Part shown: one piece after another, positions 9,924 to 17,920 of the stretch
How the letters are laid out: each line of letters starts with the position of its first letter
How positions within the stretch are numbered: the first letter of the stretch is position 1
Source: a virus
DNA: 20,162 nucleotides
Direction: 5' to 3' (one strand)
IMG/VR virus record: IMGVR_UViG_3300024346_000670
Span: 1 to 20,162 of that record
Position numbers and translations under genes: made by a program
Notes under the pieces: generated by a model
The model's input: the letters and a program-made list of their open reading frames with translations, nothing else
What the model was told of the DNA's origin: nothing
Databases searched by the model: none

Positions 9924-10486
9924 TACGCTTTACCCCACTTCAAGTCCTTGACGGAATTAGCTGAAAACTCAAACCCCAAGTCAGTTGAATAAAGCTCTCG
10001 CTGTGATGATGAATTAGTTCGTCTACCGCCCTTTTTCTCAAAGTCAGCCCAATGACTATCAGCAGTCAAAGTGATTACTGAATTATCGCCTTCCTGAAAA
10101 CTGAAGCTGGATAACAAACCTTTGAACAGAAGGATTGGTGCGCCTACAATTCCGTATGATGCGCTTGTCGCGCAGAGGTAATAAAAAACATCGCCGTTAT
10201 TCCAATTTTGAGTAAGCAAATCACTTGCAAATGAACCTGTGGCGTTACTCAATGTAATATTGAATTGTTGGTTCTGTAATGTTCCGCTTTGCCCAGAAGC
10301 ACTTATGTCCACCAAAAGCTCTGAGGATTCATAAGTCTCGCCATCATAAACCAAGTCAATCGGATTGCTGGTGTAATACCGTACCGTAGGAGTGTCTGTA
10401 TCTACCTCAATACTTATTAAATGTGCAATCCCTGAGCTGTTAGACTGGAGCGCAGAGAATGTAGAGGCATTGATCGTTCTTGCCAT
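9923..10486 (-). CDS. Minor tail / tip hub protein (187 aa)
   Basis: This small tail protein sits directly before the gpJ-like gene, where tip hub proteins are found. Its N-terminus (MARTINASTFSALQSNSSG) leads into IEVDTDTPTVRYYTSNPIDLVYDGETYES, the 'strand, YT, DGETY' pattern of phage minor tail proteins related to the DUF2163 and lambda gpL-like groups. The C-terminus holds GGRRTNSSSQRELYSTDLGF and DLKWGK, a conserved end in these proteins. In lambda gpL this region carries an iron-sulfur cluster, but the cysteine pattern for that is absent here (a single Cys, in LCATSAS). The ATG overlaps the previous stop as TAATG, and its own TAG overlaps the gpJ start, so all three are likely translated together. 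Confidence 0.65.
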   Translation of the reverse strand: MARTINASTFSALQSNSSGIAHLISIEVDTDTPTVRYYTSNPIDLVYDGETYESSELLVDISASGQSGTLQNQQFNITLSNATGSFASDLLTQNWNNGDVFYYLCATSASYGIVGAPILLFKGLLSSFSFQEGDNSVITLTADSHWADFEKKGGRRTNSSSQRELYSTDLGFEFSANSVKDLKWGKA

Positions 10487-11061
10487 TATAAAGACTCAAT
10501 AAAATCGACTTCGATATTGTACTGGTTATTAGCATTTACCTCATAAGATTGAATGTCATTTGCCAGACGAACCTTAAACGCCACGTTGTTGTAGGTAACA
10601 GCGGCATTGTTGGCAACATCAGCAACGAGCGCAGGATAGATCGTCAATGTGCCATTCCCAGATAAGTCTTCTGTAACCATGTAGACCTTGTTATGCCCTG
10701 CAAACTTAACTAAGTCTCCCCTGAGCAAACTTTGCCCTACAAGTCCATCAACAGCAATCGTCTTATCGCCCGCTGTATGCGCTCCGTTAACTAGAACACT
10801 GCCCGACGCAGTGCCACGAGTGGAGCCAATCTCTGTTGGCTGTATGTCAAACTCGCCAAATCTTCCGCCCTGAGAAATGATATATGCACTGACAATACCA
10901 GCTTCAGACTTTGTTAGACGTTCATAGCTAGCAGTAAACTCCCAGCGTTGCGCTCCGATTGCACGAGCCTTGATCTTTCCGTTGATCGACTCTGATGTGG
11001 TGACAAAGTTATTCGACCTGAAATTGATCGACTGAAACTCTGGATCAGTTGGGTAAGTCAT
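10486..11061 (-). CDS. Minor tail protein with inserted beta domain (191 aa)
   Basis: Located straight after the tape measure gene, in the place of distal tail or gpM-like proteins. The N-terminal part (residues 1-80; RWEFTASYERLTKSEA, GGRFGEFDIQP) and the last 30 residues (YNIEVDFIESL) form a typical minor-tail frame. Between them, residues about 84-164 form a separate domain (GDKTIAVDGLVGQSLLRGDL, VKFAG, then EDLSGNGTL and NNAAVTY) that closely resembles residues about 229-310 of the major capsid protein in this window. I read this as a small beta barrel exposed on the tail surface. The ATG overlaps the tape measure stop (ATGA). Its exact position in the tail tip is inferred. Confidence 0.65.
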   Translation of the reverse strand: MTYPTDPEFQSINFRSNNFVTTSESINGKIKARAIGAQRWEFTASYERLTKSEAGIVSAYIISQGGRFGEFDIQPTEIGSTRGTASGSVLVNGAHTAGDKTIAVDGLVGQSLLRGDLVKFAGHNKVYMVTEDLSGNGTLTIYPALVADVANNAAVTYNNVAFKVRLANDIQSYEVNANNQYNIEVDFIESL

Positions 11062-13082
11062 ACAAGTGCCTTCCTACCGCGATTATTCATTGCTTGGTTA
11101 ATCATACCAATAATCATGCCTCGACGCTGTTGTAACAACTGGTCAAATCCTGATGCGTCTGTTGCCGTGATATTAAATGAGACGCTGACGTTTTGTGTAT
11201 TGCTAGTAGATTCTGGACGCAGTTTTTCGTTAGGTATGATCCTGCCGCTAGACCCCATAGTCAGAACTTCTGGCCCGCGCTCCCCGACAACATAGGATTC
11301 ACCGCCTCTAACCTGTCCGCCTAATGCCCTACCAGAGAGTGATTTAGTAGCGTACGATGCGCCCGCCGCGATAATGACACCAGCCGCCGCCGCACCCAAT
11401 ACTGGGCCGACAATGGGGATTATCGCTAACGATTTATATGCCGCCATCGCCGCACCGTACGAATCGGAAATAATCTTTGCCGCATTCTCGCGCTTTTCCT
11501 GATTCATCAGGTTCACGCCGACTCTGAATCCAGCCTTTTGCTTTTCAGACTTACCCTTCATCAATTTGCCTTCAAGGCCAAGCAATGATTCATTTAAGTT
11601 GGTGCGCTGTTCAAGCTCGCGGTTGTCTTGCCGTGCTTGTATCTCAGCCTTGACCCTACCATTCTCTTCAGCGTCCGCAATCTGCTTCTTAGCATATTCC
11701 GCTTCATTTCTACGAACAATTTCAAGCTGTACTTGTTTCATCTGTTCTTGATTGAAGTTTAATTCTTTGGCTTCTCTGAGCAATTTTTCTGTTTTAGTTT
11801 CGCTCTTAAACTGAGCCAAAAATTCTTTCTGCTGTTCAATGAGCTTCTGCTTTTGGCCGTATATTTCTTTTAAGACTTTAACCGTGCCTTTTTGCTCTTC
11901 AGATAAATCTTTCTGCGCGGCTTTCTCATCTTTCGCAGATTGGATAGCGACCAATCTAGCCTTGTGTAGTTTTAGTTCATCGCCAGTAAGCCCCATTGCA
12001 ACGGCTCTTTGAATCTCCATTTCGATCCAAGACATTCTGGTTGCACCAGCTTGCTCTTTCGTTTTGGCAATTAGTGCTTCTCTAGCTTTTCTTAGTGCTT
12101 CTGCCTGTGCTTCCGCTTCTTTCTCGACTTGCTGTTGCTTCTCGTAAGCCTTGACTGCCTCTAACTGACGGCGTAATTGATTTTGTAATGAAATGCCAGC
12201 ACCGTCTCTAGCGGCTTCTAGTATCTTTAATTCGATGGCTGTCTTGCCAATAGCATTAAATTCGTCGTCGATGGTTTCAACTAAGGCCATCAAATTCTCG
12301 CGCTTTTCTTTAACCTCTTTGGTTTCTTCTTTGCGCTTGCCCGTTAGAATATCGAATTGAGTTTGCAATTCTTGCTGTAACTTGAGCTGATCTTCTAAAG
12401 CATTTCTATTAGTTATGACAGCTTCCGCGCTATCAATATACGATGCCGTTAAATCCTTATTCCCTTTAAAAATCTCTTTGCCTGACTCTATAACTCCGGT
12501 TGATCCATCTCGTAGCTCATAGAATCGCTCTACTGCATCTGCCTGAGTCTCCCCTAAGCTCTCAATCGTATCTCTAACAGTCGCTAACTCTCTCCGTAGC
12601 TCTGCTAGTTTCGCGCCTTTTGCCGCTTCGGAAAGGGCTGATAAATCTCCGCTATATTCCTTGAGCTTCTTTTTAGATTCTGTGATTGCTTCATTGGCGG
12701 CAAACAATGATCGAATGAACGGCCCACCGATCAGCGCACCGATAGCCAAGATCGCACCGAAAGCCGCACCAGAAGGGCCGAAGATCGCCGCAATTTGCGG
12801 GCCTTGTTGCGCGAATACACGAACAGCATCCGTGCCAGATTCAAGCTGGACTGCAACGTCTTGTATCTGTACGGATAATTGACCAGTAGTATTTGTTAGG
12901 GCGGATGCCGCCCCACGGTATCCTTTCAAGAGAGGCGGGCCTTTGCGAGCTTGGGCGTTCATCCCGTCCAAGCCATTTCCAGCGGCTTCTGCGGCTTTCT
13001 TGAGTCGTGTAAGCTCTTTCTGTGCGGCCTTAGTGCCTACTGTCTCAATCGCAATCTGTAGCTTTTCAATATCTGTCGCCAT
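11058..13082 (-). CDS. Tape measure protein (674 aa)
   Basis: The tail length tape measure protein, which runs through the tail tube and sets its length. Long charged coiled coils (about residues 130-525) are bracketed by hydrophobic segments: IAAIFGPSGAAFGAILAIGALIGG near 98-122 and SLAIIPIVGPVLGAAAAGVIIAAG near 552-577. The C-terminus carries the landmark ALGGQVRGGESYVVGERGPEVL and SSGRIIPNEKL, seen at the end of many lambda-type tape measures. At about 0.15 nm per residue this predicts a tail near 100 nm. A GTG three bases upstream (13085) is possible, but AAGG is better spaced for the ATG at 13082. No lytic transglycosylase or peptidase motif is visible. It follows its chaperone pair, the usual order. 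Confidence 0.9.
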   Translation of the reverse strand: MATDIEKLQIAIETVGTKAAQKELTRLKKAAEAAGNGLDGMNAQARKGPPLLKGYRGAASALTNTTGQLSVQIQDVAVQLESGTDAVRVFAQQGPQIAAIFGPSGAAFGAILAIGALIGGPFIRSLFAANEAITESKKKLKEYSGDLSALSEAAKGAKLAELRRELATVRDTIESLGETQADAVERFYELRDGSTGVIESGKEIFKGNKDLTASYIDSAEAVITNRNALEDQLKLQQELQTQFDILTGKRKEETKEVKEKRENLMALVETIDDEFNAIGKTAIELKILEAARDGAGISLQNQLRRQLEAVKAYEKQQQVEKEAEAQAEALRKAREALIAKTKEQAGATRMSWIEMEIQRAVAMGLTGDELKLHKARLVAIQSAKDEKAAQKDLSEEQKGTVKVLKEIYGQKQKLIEQQKEFLAQFKSETKTEKLLREAKELNFNQEQMKQVQLEIVRRNEAEYAKKQIADAEENGRVKAEIQARQDNRELEQRTNLNESLLGLEGKLMKGKSEKQKAGFRVGVNLMNQEKRENAAKIISDSYGAAMAAYKSLAIIPIVGPVLGAAAAGVIIAAGASYATKSLSGRALGGQVRGGESYVVGERGPEVLTMGSSGRIIPNEKLRPESTSNTQNVSVSFNITATDASGFDQLLQQRRGMIIGMINQAMNNRGRKALV

Positions 13083-13084
13083 CA

Positions 13085-13369
13085 CTAAACCTTATGCTTC
13101 GCAAGCTCCATAATCGCCTCAATCTCCCACGGATCAAGTACCCTACCCGTAAGCCGCATATAACTTTCAAGCTCCAACCATGTATGGTTTTTGAGCGATG
13201 TGTACGCTGTCCAGCAATCATCATGTTGCCATAATAGCGTTGGTGCATTTAGCAATTCTGGCGGTGTGACTCCGCGACTTTTCTCAACTTGTTTCAGGCT
13301 TTCATAACGACTGATTTTTGAACCTTCTGGGTAGCTATTTATGTAAAAACACCACTTCCCAAACGCCAC
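13085..13369 (-). CDS. Tail assembly chaperone, T part (expressed by -1 frameshift)
   Basis: Second half of a lambda gpG/gpGT-type chaperone pair. The reading frame is open back to the slippery site at 13399-13393, so a -1 shift adds HKRLIDEF before VAFGKWCFY and yields a fusion of 222 residues. A free-standing start at GTG 13369 is possible but has no clear ribosome binding site, which argues that frameshifting is the main route. The product contains SLKQVEKSRGVTPPELLNAP, an HDDCWTAYTSL helix and a MELAKHKV end. In lambda, the T domain recruits the tape measure and the tail tube subunit during assembly. Its stop lies three bases before the tape measure ATG at 13082. Confidence 0.75.
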   Translation of the reverse strand: MAFGKWCFYINSYPEGSKISRYESLKQVEKSRGVTPPELLNAPTLLWQHDDCWTAYTSLKNHTWLELESYMRLTGRVLDPWEIEAIMELAKHKV

Positions 13370-13380
13370 AAACTCATCAA

Positions 13381-13752
13381 TCAGTCGTTTATGAAATTTT
13401 TCCTATCAAGTAAGAAAGCAAAGATTTGGTTCACTACATTCGGAGAATTTTCGCACAGCCAAAGAGCATTCTCTTTTGAATACTTAAATGGCTTACCACC
13501 CTTCTGCAACTCCTGCCAATCAATAATGATTGAAGCAATCATCGGCCACAGATATTCATGGTCAAATAAATCTATGCCTTCTTCACCTTCGTGTTTCCTT
13601 CTTTGCTCCTTCTGAGCCTGTCTCCATGCTTTGGAATCCAAACCTTTGACCAGAAAGATTACATCCTCTGGTTCCCCAGTTGCCGTATTCACGAGCTGAA
13701 ACTCCGCTCCAGACTCGTGACTCTCAACCGTCGCCAGTTGATTTATGTCCAT
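13381..13752 (-). CDS. Tail assembly chaperone, G-like (123 aa)
   Basis: First half of the tail assembly chaperone pair, lying between the tail tube gene and the tape measure gene, as lambda G does. The protein is a compact alpha/beta chaperone-like sequence: MDINQLATVESHESGAEFQL, a VIFLVKGLDSKAWRQAQKEQ segment, a helix rich in charge (RRKHEGEEGIDLFDHEY), and an aromatic end NQIFAFLLDRKNF. FLVKGLDS-x-x-W is typical of the phage chaperone group. The final codons contain A AAT TTC, where ribosomes can slip -1 into the T frame. ATG 13752 sits at the end of a hairpin whose loop and right arm carry the AGGGGG ribosome binding site. Without the shift the product ends with IND at the TGA. Confidence 0.8.
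   Translation of the reverse strand: MDINQLATVESHESGAEFQLVNTATGEPEDVIFLVKGLDSKAWRQAQKEQRRKHEGEEGIDLFDHEYLWPMIASIIIDWQELQKGGKPFKYSKENALWLCENSPNVVNQIFAFLLDRKNFIND
13393..13399 (-). other. Programmed -1 frameshift heptamer A AAT TTC
   Basis: Read on the minus strand with the zero frame of the G-like gene, the codons are AGG AAA AAT TTC ATA. The heptamer A AAT TTC is an exact X XXY YYZ slippery site: after a -1 shift, AAT re-pairs as AAA and TTC as TTT. The new frame runs without a stop into the T part. The zero-frame stop (TGA 13383-13381) comes three codons later. No strong downstream pseudoknot was recognised by eye. G/GT frameshifting in tail chaperones is well established in lambda and many long-tailed phages; use of this site here is inferred. 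Confidence 0.85.
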
Positions 13753-13771
13753 AAAACCCCCTAGGTTTTAT
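13751..13771 (-). promoter_or_regulatory. Hairpin overlapping the G-like gene ribosome binding site and start
   Basis: On the minus strand an 8-bp perfect inverted repeat, ATAAAACC / GGTTTTAT, encloses the loop TAGGG. The Shine-Dalgarno sequence AGGGGG is split between loop and right arm, and the last two arm bases are the first two of the ATG at 13752. It could lower translation of the chaperone relative to the abundant tail tube protein just upstream, or act as a weak terminator after the tube gene. The stem is mostly A-T, so strength is uncertain. Confidence 0.5.
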
Positions 13772-13780
13772 TGTTGATAA

Positions 13781-14698
13781 TTATGCAGGTGTACGAGTAA
13801 TGACGAGCTGTGAAGCATCCGCAGAACTGTACAAAGCAACAAAGTCCATGCTGACCGTTACCGCACCTTCCCCTGAAACGTCCGGCTGACCAGAATTGAA
13901 CTTAACCTTAGTTAAATCGATGATGTAATCATTCCCCGCTGTGTCTGTCAGTGTACATACAACGTCAGACTCAGTTTCGTTAATGAACTTTTCATACAAC
14001 GTCTTGCTGTCGAAATAAGTAGTTAGCGTACCAGTTACGCGAGACTTGCCAATCGAAGGGCGGCTAGTTGTGTCAGCACCTACCGAGAACAAAGGCTCCA
14101 GACCATTCTCAATCGAAATATCGAGTGCTGTGACTGTTGCGATTGACGAACCACCTTCATTGATCGATCCAGTAAATGAATCAAAAGGTGTGTTGCCAAT
14201 ATCAGCAGAATAGGTTGATGAAGCAACTTCAGCAGTAGCAAGTGCTAAATCCTGACCTACAACTCCGAAAGTAGTGCTAACCATAGCATTTGGACTGATC
14301 GACATACTCATTGTGTTGAACTCACAACCTGTATAGCGATGAAACTCTGGAGTTGCCAAATCTGCGAACTTACGCTCAAGGGTGAAAGAACGACGAGTTG
14401 TGCCTGTTTTTAGGACGTTAGTTGTCCAAGTTCCGCACATTACAGCCTCAAGAATGTCGTCAAATGCGCCGTATTCTAATTCAGCGGAAACATCCCCTGA
14501 AACAGATTTGTTGCCATGACGAAAATCTTCGACCTGCCGGTCACCGCGCAGTTTCTCTGATTCAATGCCATCTTTTGACAAAGCCAAAGTCGTTCCTGTG
14601 TGCGGTAAAGGAGTCCAAGTCGGTGTGCTTGGAGTAGTTCCATAGGTACTCTCTGCAATAAAGTGCAGGGAATGTTGTGCGCCGTTTGCGATAGCCAT
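13781..14698 (-). CDS. Major tail (tube) protein (305 aa)
   Basis: The protein that polymerises into the tail tube. The N-terminus MAIANGAQHSLHFIAESTYG, followed by TPSTPTWTPLPHTGTTL, matches the phage tail tube family of the Phage_tube_2 type: a 'GTTP-x-x-P-x-x-x-LP' stretch, then GNKSVSGDVSAELEYGAFDDIL and a core of beta strands. FRHGNKSVSGD and SFTGSINEGGSSIATVTALD are further landmarks. At about 300 residues it is the usual size for this family. TAGGA upstream supports the ATG at 14698. It lies between the tail terminator and the chaperone pair, the standard order in long non-contractile tails. No contractile sheath gene is seen, which supports siphovirus morphology. Confidence 0.85.
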   Translation of the reverse strand: MAIANGAQHSLHFIAESTYGTTPSTPTWTPLPHTGTTLALSKDGIESEKLRGDRQVEDFRHGNKSVSGDVSAELEYGAFDDILEAVMCGTWTTNVLKTGTTRRSFTLERKFADLATPEFHRYTGCEFNTMSMSISPNAMVSTTFGVVGQDLALATAEVASSTYSADIGNTPFDSFTGSINEGGSSIATVTALDISIENGLEPLFSVGADTTSRPSIGKSRVTGTLTTYFDSKTLYEKFINETESDVVCTLTDTAGNDYIIDLTKVKFNSGQPDVSGEGAVTVSMDFVALYSSADASQLVITRTPA

Positions 14699-16774: not shown

Positions 16775-17920
16775 TTAGCCAACCAATGTGGCAATGAAGT
16801 CAGACTTCCAAGCCTTGACACCCCAAGATGCCGCAACTTCGATCATAGTCTTACGATAGCCCTTATAAACACGGACTTCAAAGACCAATCCTGAAACTGG
16901 GTCTTGAACTGTTAAAGCGTCGTCTGCTGTGTCTCCGCCCTGTGGTACTGCTGGCGCACGAACCGCCAACTCAAGAGCGCGACGATGGAACGCAATGTTC
17001 GCTGTGTAGCTGTCGCCCACAGTGATCGCGTCGTTGTCAGCTTCAGCCGCAGTCAGACCAGTTCCGCCGATGACGAATGAACCGCCAGACAGTGCTGTGT
17101 TGACAACGTACTGAGTTGATGTACCTGCGAAAGTCACAATGTCACCTGCAAGGATAGTTCCTGAGCCAGTGTCAGTTGCGATTGTCGTATCACCAACAGC
17201 AGATGAAGCGTCGTTCAGCAGGTAGCTACTACCAGTACCCTTGGTGTGAGTGCCGACTTGTGCAGACTCGCGGATGCCCAGACCTTGGAGGTCTAGCAAA
17301 ACGCCCTGACGCAGGAGGTCAGTTCCACCAGCAGTGTTTGCTTGCTGGAGCTGTGCCAACTGACGCAAGTTAGTTCCTGCGAGAGTGTTCATCACGAGTG
17401 ATACCTGACCATCGTTCTGTGGCATACCGTTGTCGATGAGGATTTGGCGAATCTCAGCAATCTCTGAGAAGTTAGAGCCAAATGGCGTTGTGCCAGCAGT
17501 ACCGAACGCACGAGAAGAGTTCGTGTAGGCTTCTTCCCACAAGTCTTGCTCCATTTCGTTTGTAAGAGTACGCATTGCCTGAGCAATCTGGTCACCATAC
17601 ACAGTCTCGTAGCCGATACCGTTGTTCAAGTGGAGAATGTCTTCACCAGTGTACGGAATCTGTACTGCACGAGCGTTTGTGATGCTCAGAGTCTTGTTAT
17701 CAACAGTCTGATCGGTTCCTTCTGGAACTGTCATAGACTCTGATACGTCAACTGCTGTTGCTTCGCGTGTGAATGATGCACGAACTACGTCACCCTTCGC
17801 CGCTCGCTCTGAGCCGTTAGAGTTGATAGTAGATGCAGGAATGAAGCCTACAAGCTCCCGTCCTACCACGTCGGCGGCTTTGTAAATGTCTGCCGCAAGA
17901 TCCGTTAATACGTTAGCCAT
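16775..17920 (-). CDS. Major capsid protein, P22 coat-like (381 aa)
   Basis: The main shell protein, of the P22 gp5-like group (HK97 fold). The N-terminus MANVLTDLAADIYKAADVVG followed by RELVGFIPAS is a clear family match, as are VSESMTVPEG, TNARAVQIPYTGEDI, the W in MEQDLWEEAY and the final GYRKTMIEVAASWGVKAWKS. Residues about 229-310 form an inserted beta domain (GTGSSYLLNDASSAVGDTTI, ILAGDIVTFAG, NTALSGG, NDAIT), in the place where P22 coat carries its I-domain, and similar to a domain in the minor tail protein at 10486-11061. The ATG at 17920 has AAGGAGAGG upstream, the strongest ribosome binding site in the window. It follows the scaffold gene and is followed by a terminator. Confidence 0.92.
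   Translation of the reverse strand: MANVLTDLAADIYKAADVVGRELVGFIPASTINSNGSERAAKGDVVRASFTREATAVDVSESMTVPEGTDQTVDNKTLSITNARAVQIPYTGEDILHLNNGIGYETVYGDQIAQAMRTLTNEMEQDLWEEAYTNSSRAFGTAGTTPFGSNFSEIAEIRQILIDNGMPQNDGQVSLVMNTLAGTNLRQLAQLQQANTAGGTDLLRQGVLLDLQGLGIRESAQVGTHTKGTGSSYLLNDASSAVGDTTIATDTGSGTILAGDIVTFAGTSTQYVVNTALSGGSFVIGGTGLTAAEADNDAITVGDSYTANIAFHRRALELAVRAPAVPQGGDTADDALTVQDPVSGLVFEVRVYKGYRKTMIEVAASWGVKAWKSDFIATLVG

Follow-up and report, generated by a model that had tools for sequence, protein, structure and literature searches.

Frameshifting in the tail-assembly chaperone gene is among the most widespread recoding events of phages, and its slip sites look irregular from one phage to the next. 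The best point of comparison for the locus described here is gpG/gpGT of phage lambda (PMC5009743), with which it shares the position between the tail tube and tape measure genes, the −1 direction, a predicted slip just before the G stop codon, a T frame that lacks a start and, in this contig, a heptamer of the X XXY YYZ type. It differs in the slip site, which is A AAU UUC here and G GGA AAG in lambda (PMC7618472), and in a conserved covarying stem downstream, of which we found no description for lambda-type sites in the openly readable literature. For tail chaperones, the same literature yielded no description of an A AAU UUC site or of a conserved stem 3' of the slip site. With its slip site, 6-nt spacer and downstream stem the locus also resembles the bipartite −1 signals of viruses; the differences are a stem of 6–10 bp that closes a loop of about 62 nt, a relaxed X base and a bacterial virus as the carrier. 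As far as the motif names of PRFect (PMC10885494) tell, AATTTT and GGTTTTT of the relatives appear to fit its 'twofour' and 'twofive' motifs, and the window itself the classical 'threethree' motif. In the data of that study, most of the annotated frameshift overlaps lack the strict heptamer, in agreement with the relaxed X seen here.

Closer in sequence are isolated phages of Pseudomonas, Xanthomonas, Acinetobacter, Stenotrophomonas, Janthinobacterium, Variovorax and Vibrio, which carry the same T family. Acinetobacter phage DMU1 and Pseudomonas phage PaMx11 have a homologous T domain (PF23812), the same gene order and a −1 overlap, but in phages of this type the slip site is T TTT TTC, located one codon later, and the downstream hairpins are different ones. 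The GenBank record of DMU1, a distant relative, already lists gpG together with a joined gpGT, so that the frameshift of this family is known in principle. Tail-chaperone frameshifting itself is well known in phages; the novelty lies in the stem and in the precise slip codon.

The sequence analysed, called the window below, is the whole 20,162-base virus record IMGVR_UViG_3300024346_000670; its relevant features are collected in Table 1. Two overlapping frames lie between the tail tube and tape measure genes, as in lambda G/GT, and the genes follow each other in the order tail terminator (phrog_179), tube, G, T, tape measure and then distal tail protein. The lambda-like order that a first-pass annotation of this DNA had proposed is borne out by matches to PF18906, phrog_313, PF23812 and PF06791. 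G belongs to the tail assembly chaperones of phrog_313 (E = 4.6e-10). A Pfam search with G gave no family at E ≤ 1, and homology to lambda gpG is not supported by it; tblastn with G alone against isolated phages gave no matches. G would be lambda-like in mechanism, while a kinship in sequence with the G family of lambda finds no support. T is a member of PF23812 (Phage_TAC_18; E = 3.3e-10), with a score of 40.4 bits against a Pfam gathering cut-off of 27. Elsewhere in the window, the major head protein (16775-17920, minus strand) and the distal tail protein (10486-11061, minus strand) have a domain of about 85 residues in common (38% identity, E = 4e-10), as would result from the insertion of a single small domain into each of them.

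Table 1. Features of the chaperone locus and its neighbours in the window.
Feature	Position	Strand	Details
Tail tube protein (Phage_tube_2)	13781..14698	-	PF18906, E = 1.3e-57
G-like tail assembly chaperone ORF, 123 aa, zero frame	13381..13752	-	ATG at 13752, TGA at 13383-13381
T-like open frame, -1 relative to G	13085..13402	-	open from 13402, stop 13087-13085
Slippery heptamer A AAT TTC	13393..13399	-	in-phase X XXY YYZ; family core AAT TTY = 13398-13393
6-nt spacer between slip site and universally paired stem core	13387..13392	-	alignment and RNAalifold
Stem, 5' arm	13379..13386	-	alignment columns 14-21; pairing to 13388 in the window
G stop codon TGA	13381..13383	-	inside 5' arm of stem; position kept in 76/79 distinct sequences
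Stem, 3' arm	13309..13316	-	alignment columns 84-91; pairing to 13307 in the window
Tape measure protein (TMP_2)	11058..13085	-	PF06791, E = 1.1e-10; phrog_1538

The 3' end of G reads CTT GAT AGG AAA AAT TTC ATA AAC GAC TGA in the zero frame, with AGG at 13404-13402. TAG at 13405-13403 blocks the −1 frame on the upstream side and TGA at 13383-13381 terminates the zero frame; any slip is therefore confined to the 22-nt overlap between them. The first-pass annotation had placed an exact X XXY YYZ heptamer here, three codons before the stop; the codons AGG AAA AAT TTC ATA confirm it, in phase and separated from the G stop by three sense codons. Likewise, the −1 frame is open through T as had been claimed, and the predicted G–T fusion comprises 120 + 102 = 222 codons. 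In-phase XXXYYYZ heptamers occur at 15 of the 6348 codon positions in the genes of the window (0.24%), and the chance of meeting one among the approximately six possible positions of the overlap is about 1.4%. Conservation is a stronger support for the slip site than this estimate. A run of overlapping in-phase heptamers (GGGAAAT, AAATTTC and TTTCCCG) is also present in the neck/completion gene at 15393-15381 on the minus strand, remote from any overlap of frames; it is probably due to chance.

Two scans of viral contigs gave 80 further loci, which together with the window amount to 60 distinct sequences; a scan of genome contigs found no relatives. In 57 of the 60 the G frame stops at +7, counted from the T codon at 13390. 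The six bases of the slip site are AATTTT in 53 sequences, AATTTC in three (the window being one of them) and GTTTTT in four, while at the first heptamer position A occurs in 38, G in 11, C in six and T in five. An in-phase slippery sequence is thus conserved in the relatives, with the strict XXXYYYZ pattern in only 38 of 60, and the conserved element of the family is the AAU UUY core (rarely GUU UUU or GGU UUU) and not the full heptamer. The heptamer had been called canonical, which is correct for this contig but not for the family, where the X base is unconserved. The comparison with relatives, for which a lack of both heptamer and overlapping frame had been named as refuting, comes out in favour of the frameshift, with one qualification: the −1 overlap and a slip codon of the YYY type are present in all of them, but A at the first base is missing in 22 of 60.

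Two further scans provided a held-out set of 20 new distinct sequences with T identities to the query down to 34%. In all 20, G ends at +7, the slip codon is TTT and the six core pairs of the stem described below are intact; the codon that precedes TTT is AAT in 18 and GGT in two. The −1 relation, the overlap and the slip codon are present in 79 of 79 distinct sequences, again down to 34% T identity. In L066, L070, L072 and L034 (DMU1), the G frame passes +7 and runs for about 100 nt over T, which creates a longer stretch read in two frames.

Codon usage at the end of G is unusually fixed. When 60 G genes are aligned by codon, four of the five codons under the strongest synonymous constraint, out of 125, are numbers 123, 124, 125 and 127, with codon 126 in sixth place. 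Asparagine at the slip site is encoded by AAT in 56 of 56 cases, compared with an AAT:AAC ratio of 150:151 elsewhere in G, and phenylalanine by TTT in 57 of 60, compared with a TTT:TTC ratio of 108:160 elsewhere; other conserved Phe columns prefer TTC. Synonymous constraint of overlap codons is in part expected from dual coding, without any slip signal.

The natural variants map the predicted slip to the Phe codon, the G stop being shortly downstream. In particular, five relatives have T AAT TTT, which puts UAA in the −1 frame directly before UUU, so that the −1 frame can be entered no earlier than at UUU and this codon has to take part in a slip. These variants are compatible with a tandem slip in which the P-site tRNA pairs poorly as well as with a slip of tRNA-Phe alone. 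The latter, a single-tRNA slip on U UUY in place of the tandem two-tRNA slip on X XXY YYZ, accepts the frameshift and is a rival on mechanism only; we consider it possible, if not the favoured option. It is favoured by the variation of the X base in the 60 sequences, by T AAT TTT, where a tandem slip would need the P-site tRNA-Asn to re-pair with UAA, and by the GGTTTTT and GGGTTTT variants, which retain just the U UU part. Against it, A at X is enriched (63%, compared with 19% A at third positions of G) behind codons as varied as AAA, CAA, GAA, GCA, GGA, AGA and CGA, as tandem slippage would favour. A at this position is thus probably favoured but not essential. The two modes lead to the same product. 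We suggest, tentatively, that the first base of the heptamer is dispensable throughout the family, even where it creates UAA in the new frame, and that the stem with its 62-nt loop may drive a tRNA-Phe-dependent slip at U UUY. An upstream Shine–Dalgarno-like stimulator was considered and rejected: the AGGA of the window is unconserved and the codons at this place vary (AGG AAA, GGC GAA, CGG GCG, GCC ...).

The conserved stem downstream of the slip site, an element absent from the first-pass annotation, was located using a gap-free alignment of the 60 sequences and RNAalifold. It comprises 10 bp in the window, where the RNA 3' of the slip site folds with −31.3 kcal/mol against a mean of −16.9 kcal/mol for shuffled sequences (z = −5.2); the mean folding z just 3' of the slip site is −3.5. 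An exhaustive helix scan over 351 columns ranks columns 14–19 with 86–91 first, with a summed covariation of 0.40, followed by a helix at 0.05. Columns 14–19 are paired in every sequence (79 distinct, 19 held out), and the minimum-energy fold holds this core in 56 of 60. The core starts 6 nt after the slip site, within the usual spacing of 5–9 nt between slip site and structure (PMC7618472), as in a bipartite signal. In the held-out covariation alignment, which consists of 19 sequences and the window with the near-duplicate L148 left out, 98.8% of the cells pair and the double-change cells exceed those in all 500 shuffles and all slid controls. An Rfam search of 12900-13900 gave no match up to E = 1. 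A pseudoknot or an inner hairpin in the loop was rejected, as the exhaustive scan shows no second covarying helix; the GG/CC pairs of columns 40–41 with 70–71 follow from conserved Gly and Pro codons. An outward extension of the stem towards the slip site was also discarded: the pairing of columns 12 and 13 that is seen in the window is shared by only four and 25, respectively, of 51 distinct rows.

The stem could be a by-product of protein constraint or a different RNA element, for example one that shields the G stop or the weak GTG from initiation, rather than a stimulator. This we judge unlikely. The two arms do encode conserved residues, R-L-I in the 5' arm and I-S-R in the 3' arm, and the constancy of the stem comes in part from the I-S-R constraint. 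However, the pairs 15–90 and 18–87, the columns of which are third positions of T codons, vary among G-C, A-U and G-U while A.C is never seen; such wobble–wobble compensation, with zero broken core pairs in 79 sequences, argues against a by-product. So do the exclusive use of AGY for Ser27 in the 3' arm in spite of TCN being the commoner serine codon, and the 6-nt spacing after the slip site. Among the T codons, 26 and 27, which lie in the 3' arm, are the second and fourth most constrained at synonymous sites. The independent changes behind the covariation are limited in number: on well-supported branches they did not suffice for strict sign tests to reach significance, and a tree simulation was therefore used. 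With the wobble columns evolving independently in the 79 sequences, the probability of seeing no A.C mismatch is about 0.009 and about 0.003 for the two pairs, at similar base counts, which also speaks against a by-product. A putative role as a stimulator thus remains our preferred reading of the stem.

T has no good ribosome-binding site, as the first-pass annotation had stated. Its earliest ATG, GTG or TTG in the window is the GTG at 13369, 21 nt into the frame and with a 3-nt Shine–Dalgarno match, and this start is not conserved: in the 60 sequences the first start is at no fixed place (+21, +42, +84, +93, +135, +231 and others). The 79 distinct sequences thus have a −1 frame without a usable conserved start, as in lambda G/GT. 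Separate translation of T by re-initiation or coupling after the G stop, at this GTG or at a near-stop CTG or ATT and without any fusion, is very improbable. In its favour, 34 of 60 sequences have this GTG as their earliest T start, and many GenBank records annotate T as a separate shorter ORF. However, the GTG of the window is replaced by GTC, GTA or GTT in other relatives, in which the first start can be as far away as +135 or +231, while CTG changes to CTA, and ATT to ATC, ACC or GCT. The T residues ahead of any start (Leu3, Ile4, Phe7 and Val8) are invariant in the alignment, and a separate start would leave the fixed AAT TTY and the constraint at the end of G unexplained. Slippage of RNA polymerase on an A or T run, instead of slippage of the ribosome, is scarcely credible as the source of the fusion: the window does have a run of five A before TTTC, but this run is short and unconserved (GAATTTT, TAATTTT and CAATTTT in relatives), transcriptional realignment is associated with runs of more than seven A or more than eight T (PMC3711429), and the stem would be left unexplained.

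The G/T frameshift proposed in the first-pass annotation is therefore supported by the arrangement of the frames, by the slip codon in 79 of 79 sequences and by the lack of a conserved T start. Together with the overlap, the AAU UUY core and the covarying stem, all directly visible in the sequences, this makes it very likely, in our view, that the tail-assembly chaperone gene of this siphovirus contains a programmed −1 ribosomal frameshift signal of the lambda G/GT type with a putative stimulatory stem downstream. From this signal we infer the slippage, its rate, the stimulation by the stem and the roles of the proteins. The majority of ribosomes would read G as far as the UGA. A smaller share would encounter the stem 6 nt downstream while AAU and UUC occupy their P and A sites, and would slip back by one base, upon which tRNA-Phe would re-pair from UUC to UUU and reading would continue in the −1 frame to give the 222-amino-acid G–T fusion. 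By analogy with lambda gpG/gpGT, surplus G may coat the tape measure protein, while the rarer G–T may recruit tail tube subunits.

The isolated phages show how such a site can differ at larger distances. T TTT TTC is found in phase, one codon further on, in 11 of the 15 examined; in PaMx28 the T run is present and the G frame fails to join in the deposited sequence. Hairpins follow T TTT TTC in the distant phages L033, L118, L120, L121, L125 and L128 (for example GGGTCGAG...CTCGACC). A downstream stem may be general in the Phage_TAC_18 T family. The Vibrio phages R29Z and V07 (in the group of L117, L127 and L122) carry A AAA AAG a few codons downstream of the usual slip position, and the related phage AL-2 has no strict heptamer there and keeps the overlap. 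In L116, L117, L119, L123 and similar GenBank records, T is either given as a separate shorter gene that starts inside the frame or is unannotated.

The frameshift finding is right and ordinary in kind, and its noteworthy parts are the stem and the dispensable first base that we tentatively propose. T is mis-annotated as a separate short gene in public records. The family itself constitutes a natural series of slip sites, in which X is A, G, C or T and the P-site codon is AAU, GUU or GGU while the stem stays constant; this makes the needs of a bacterial −1 site directly testable.
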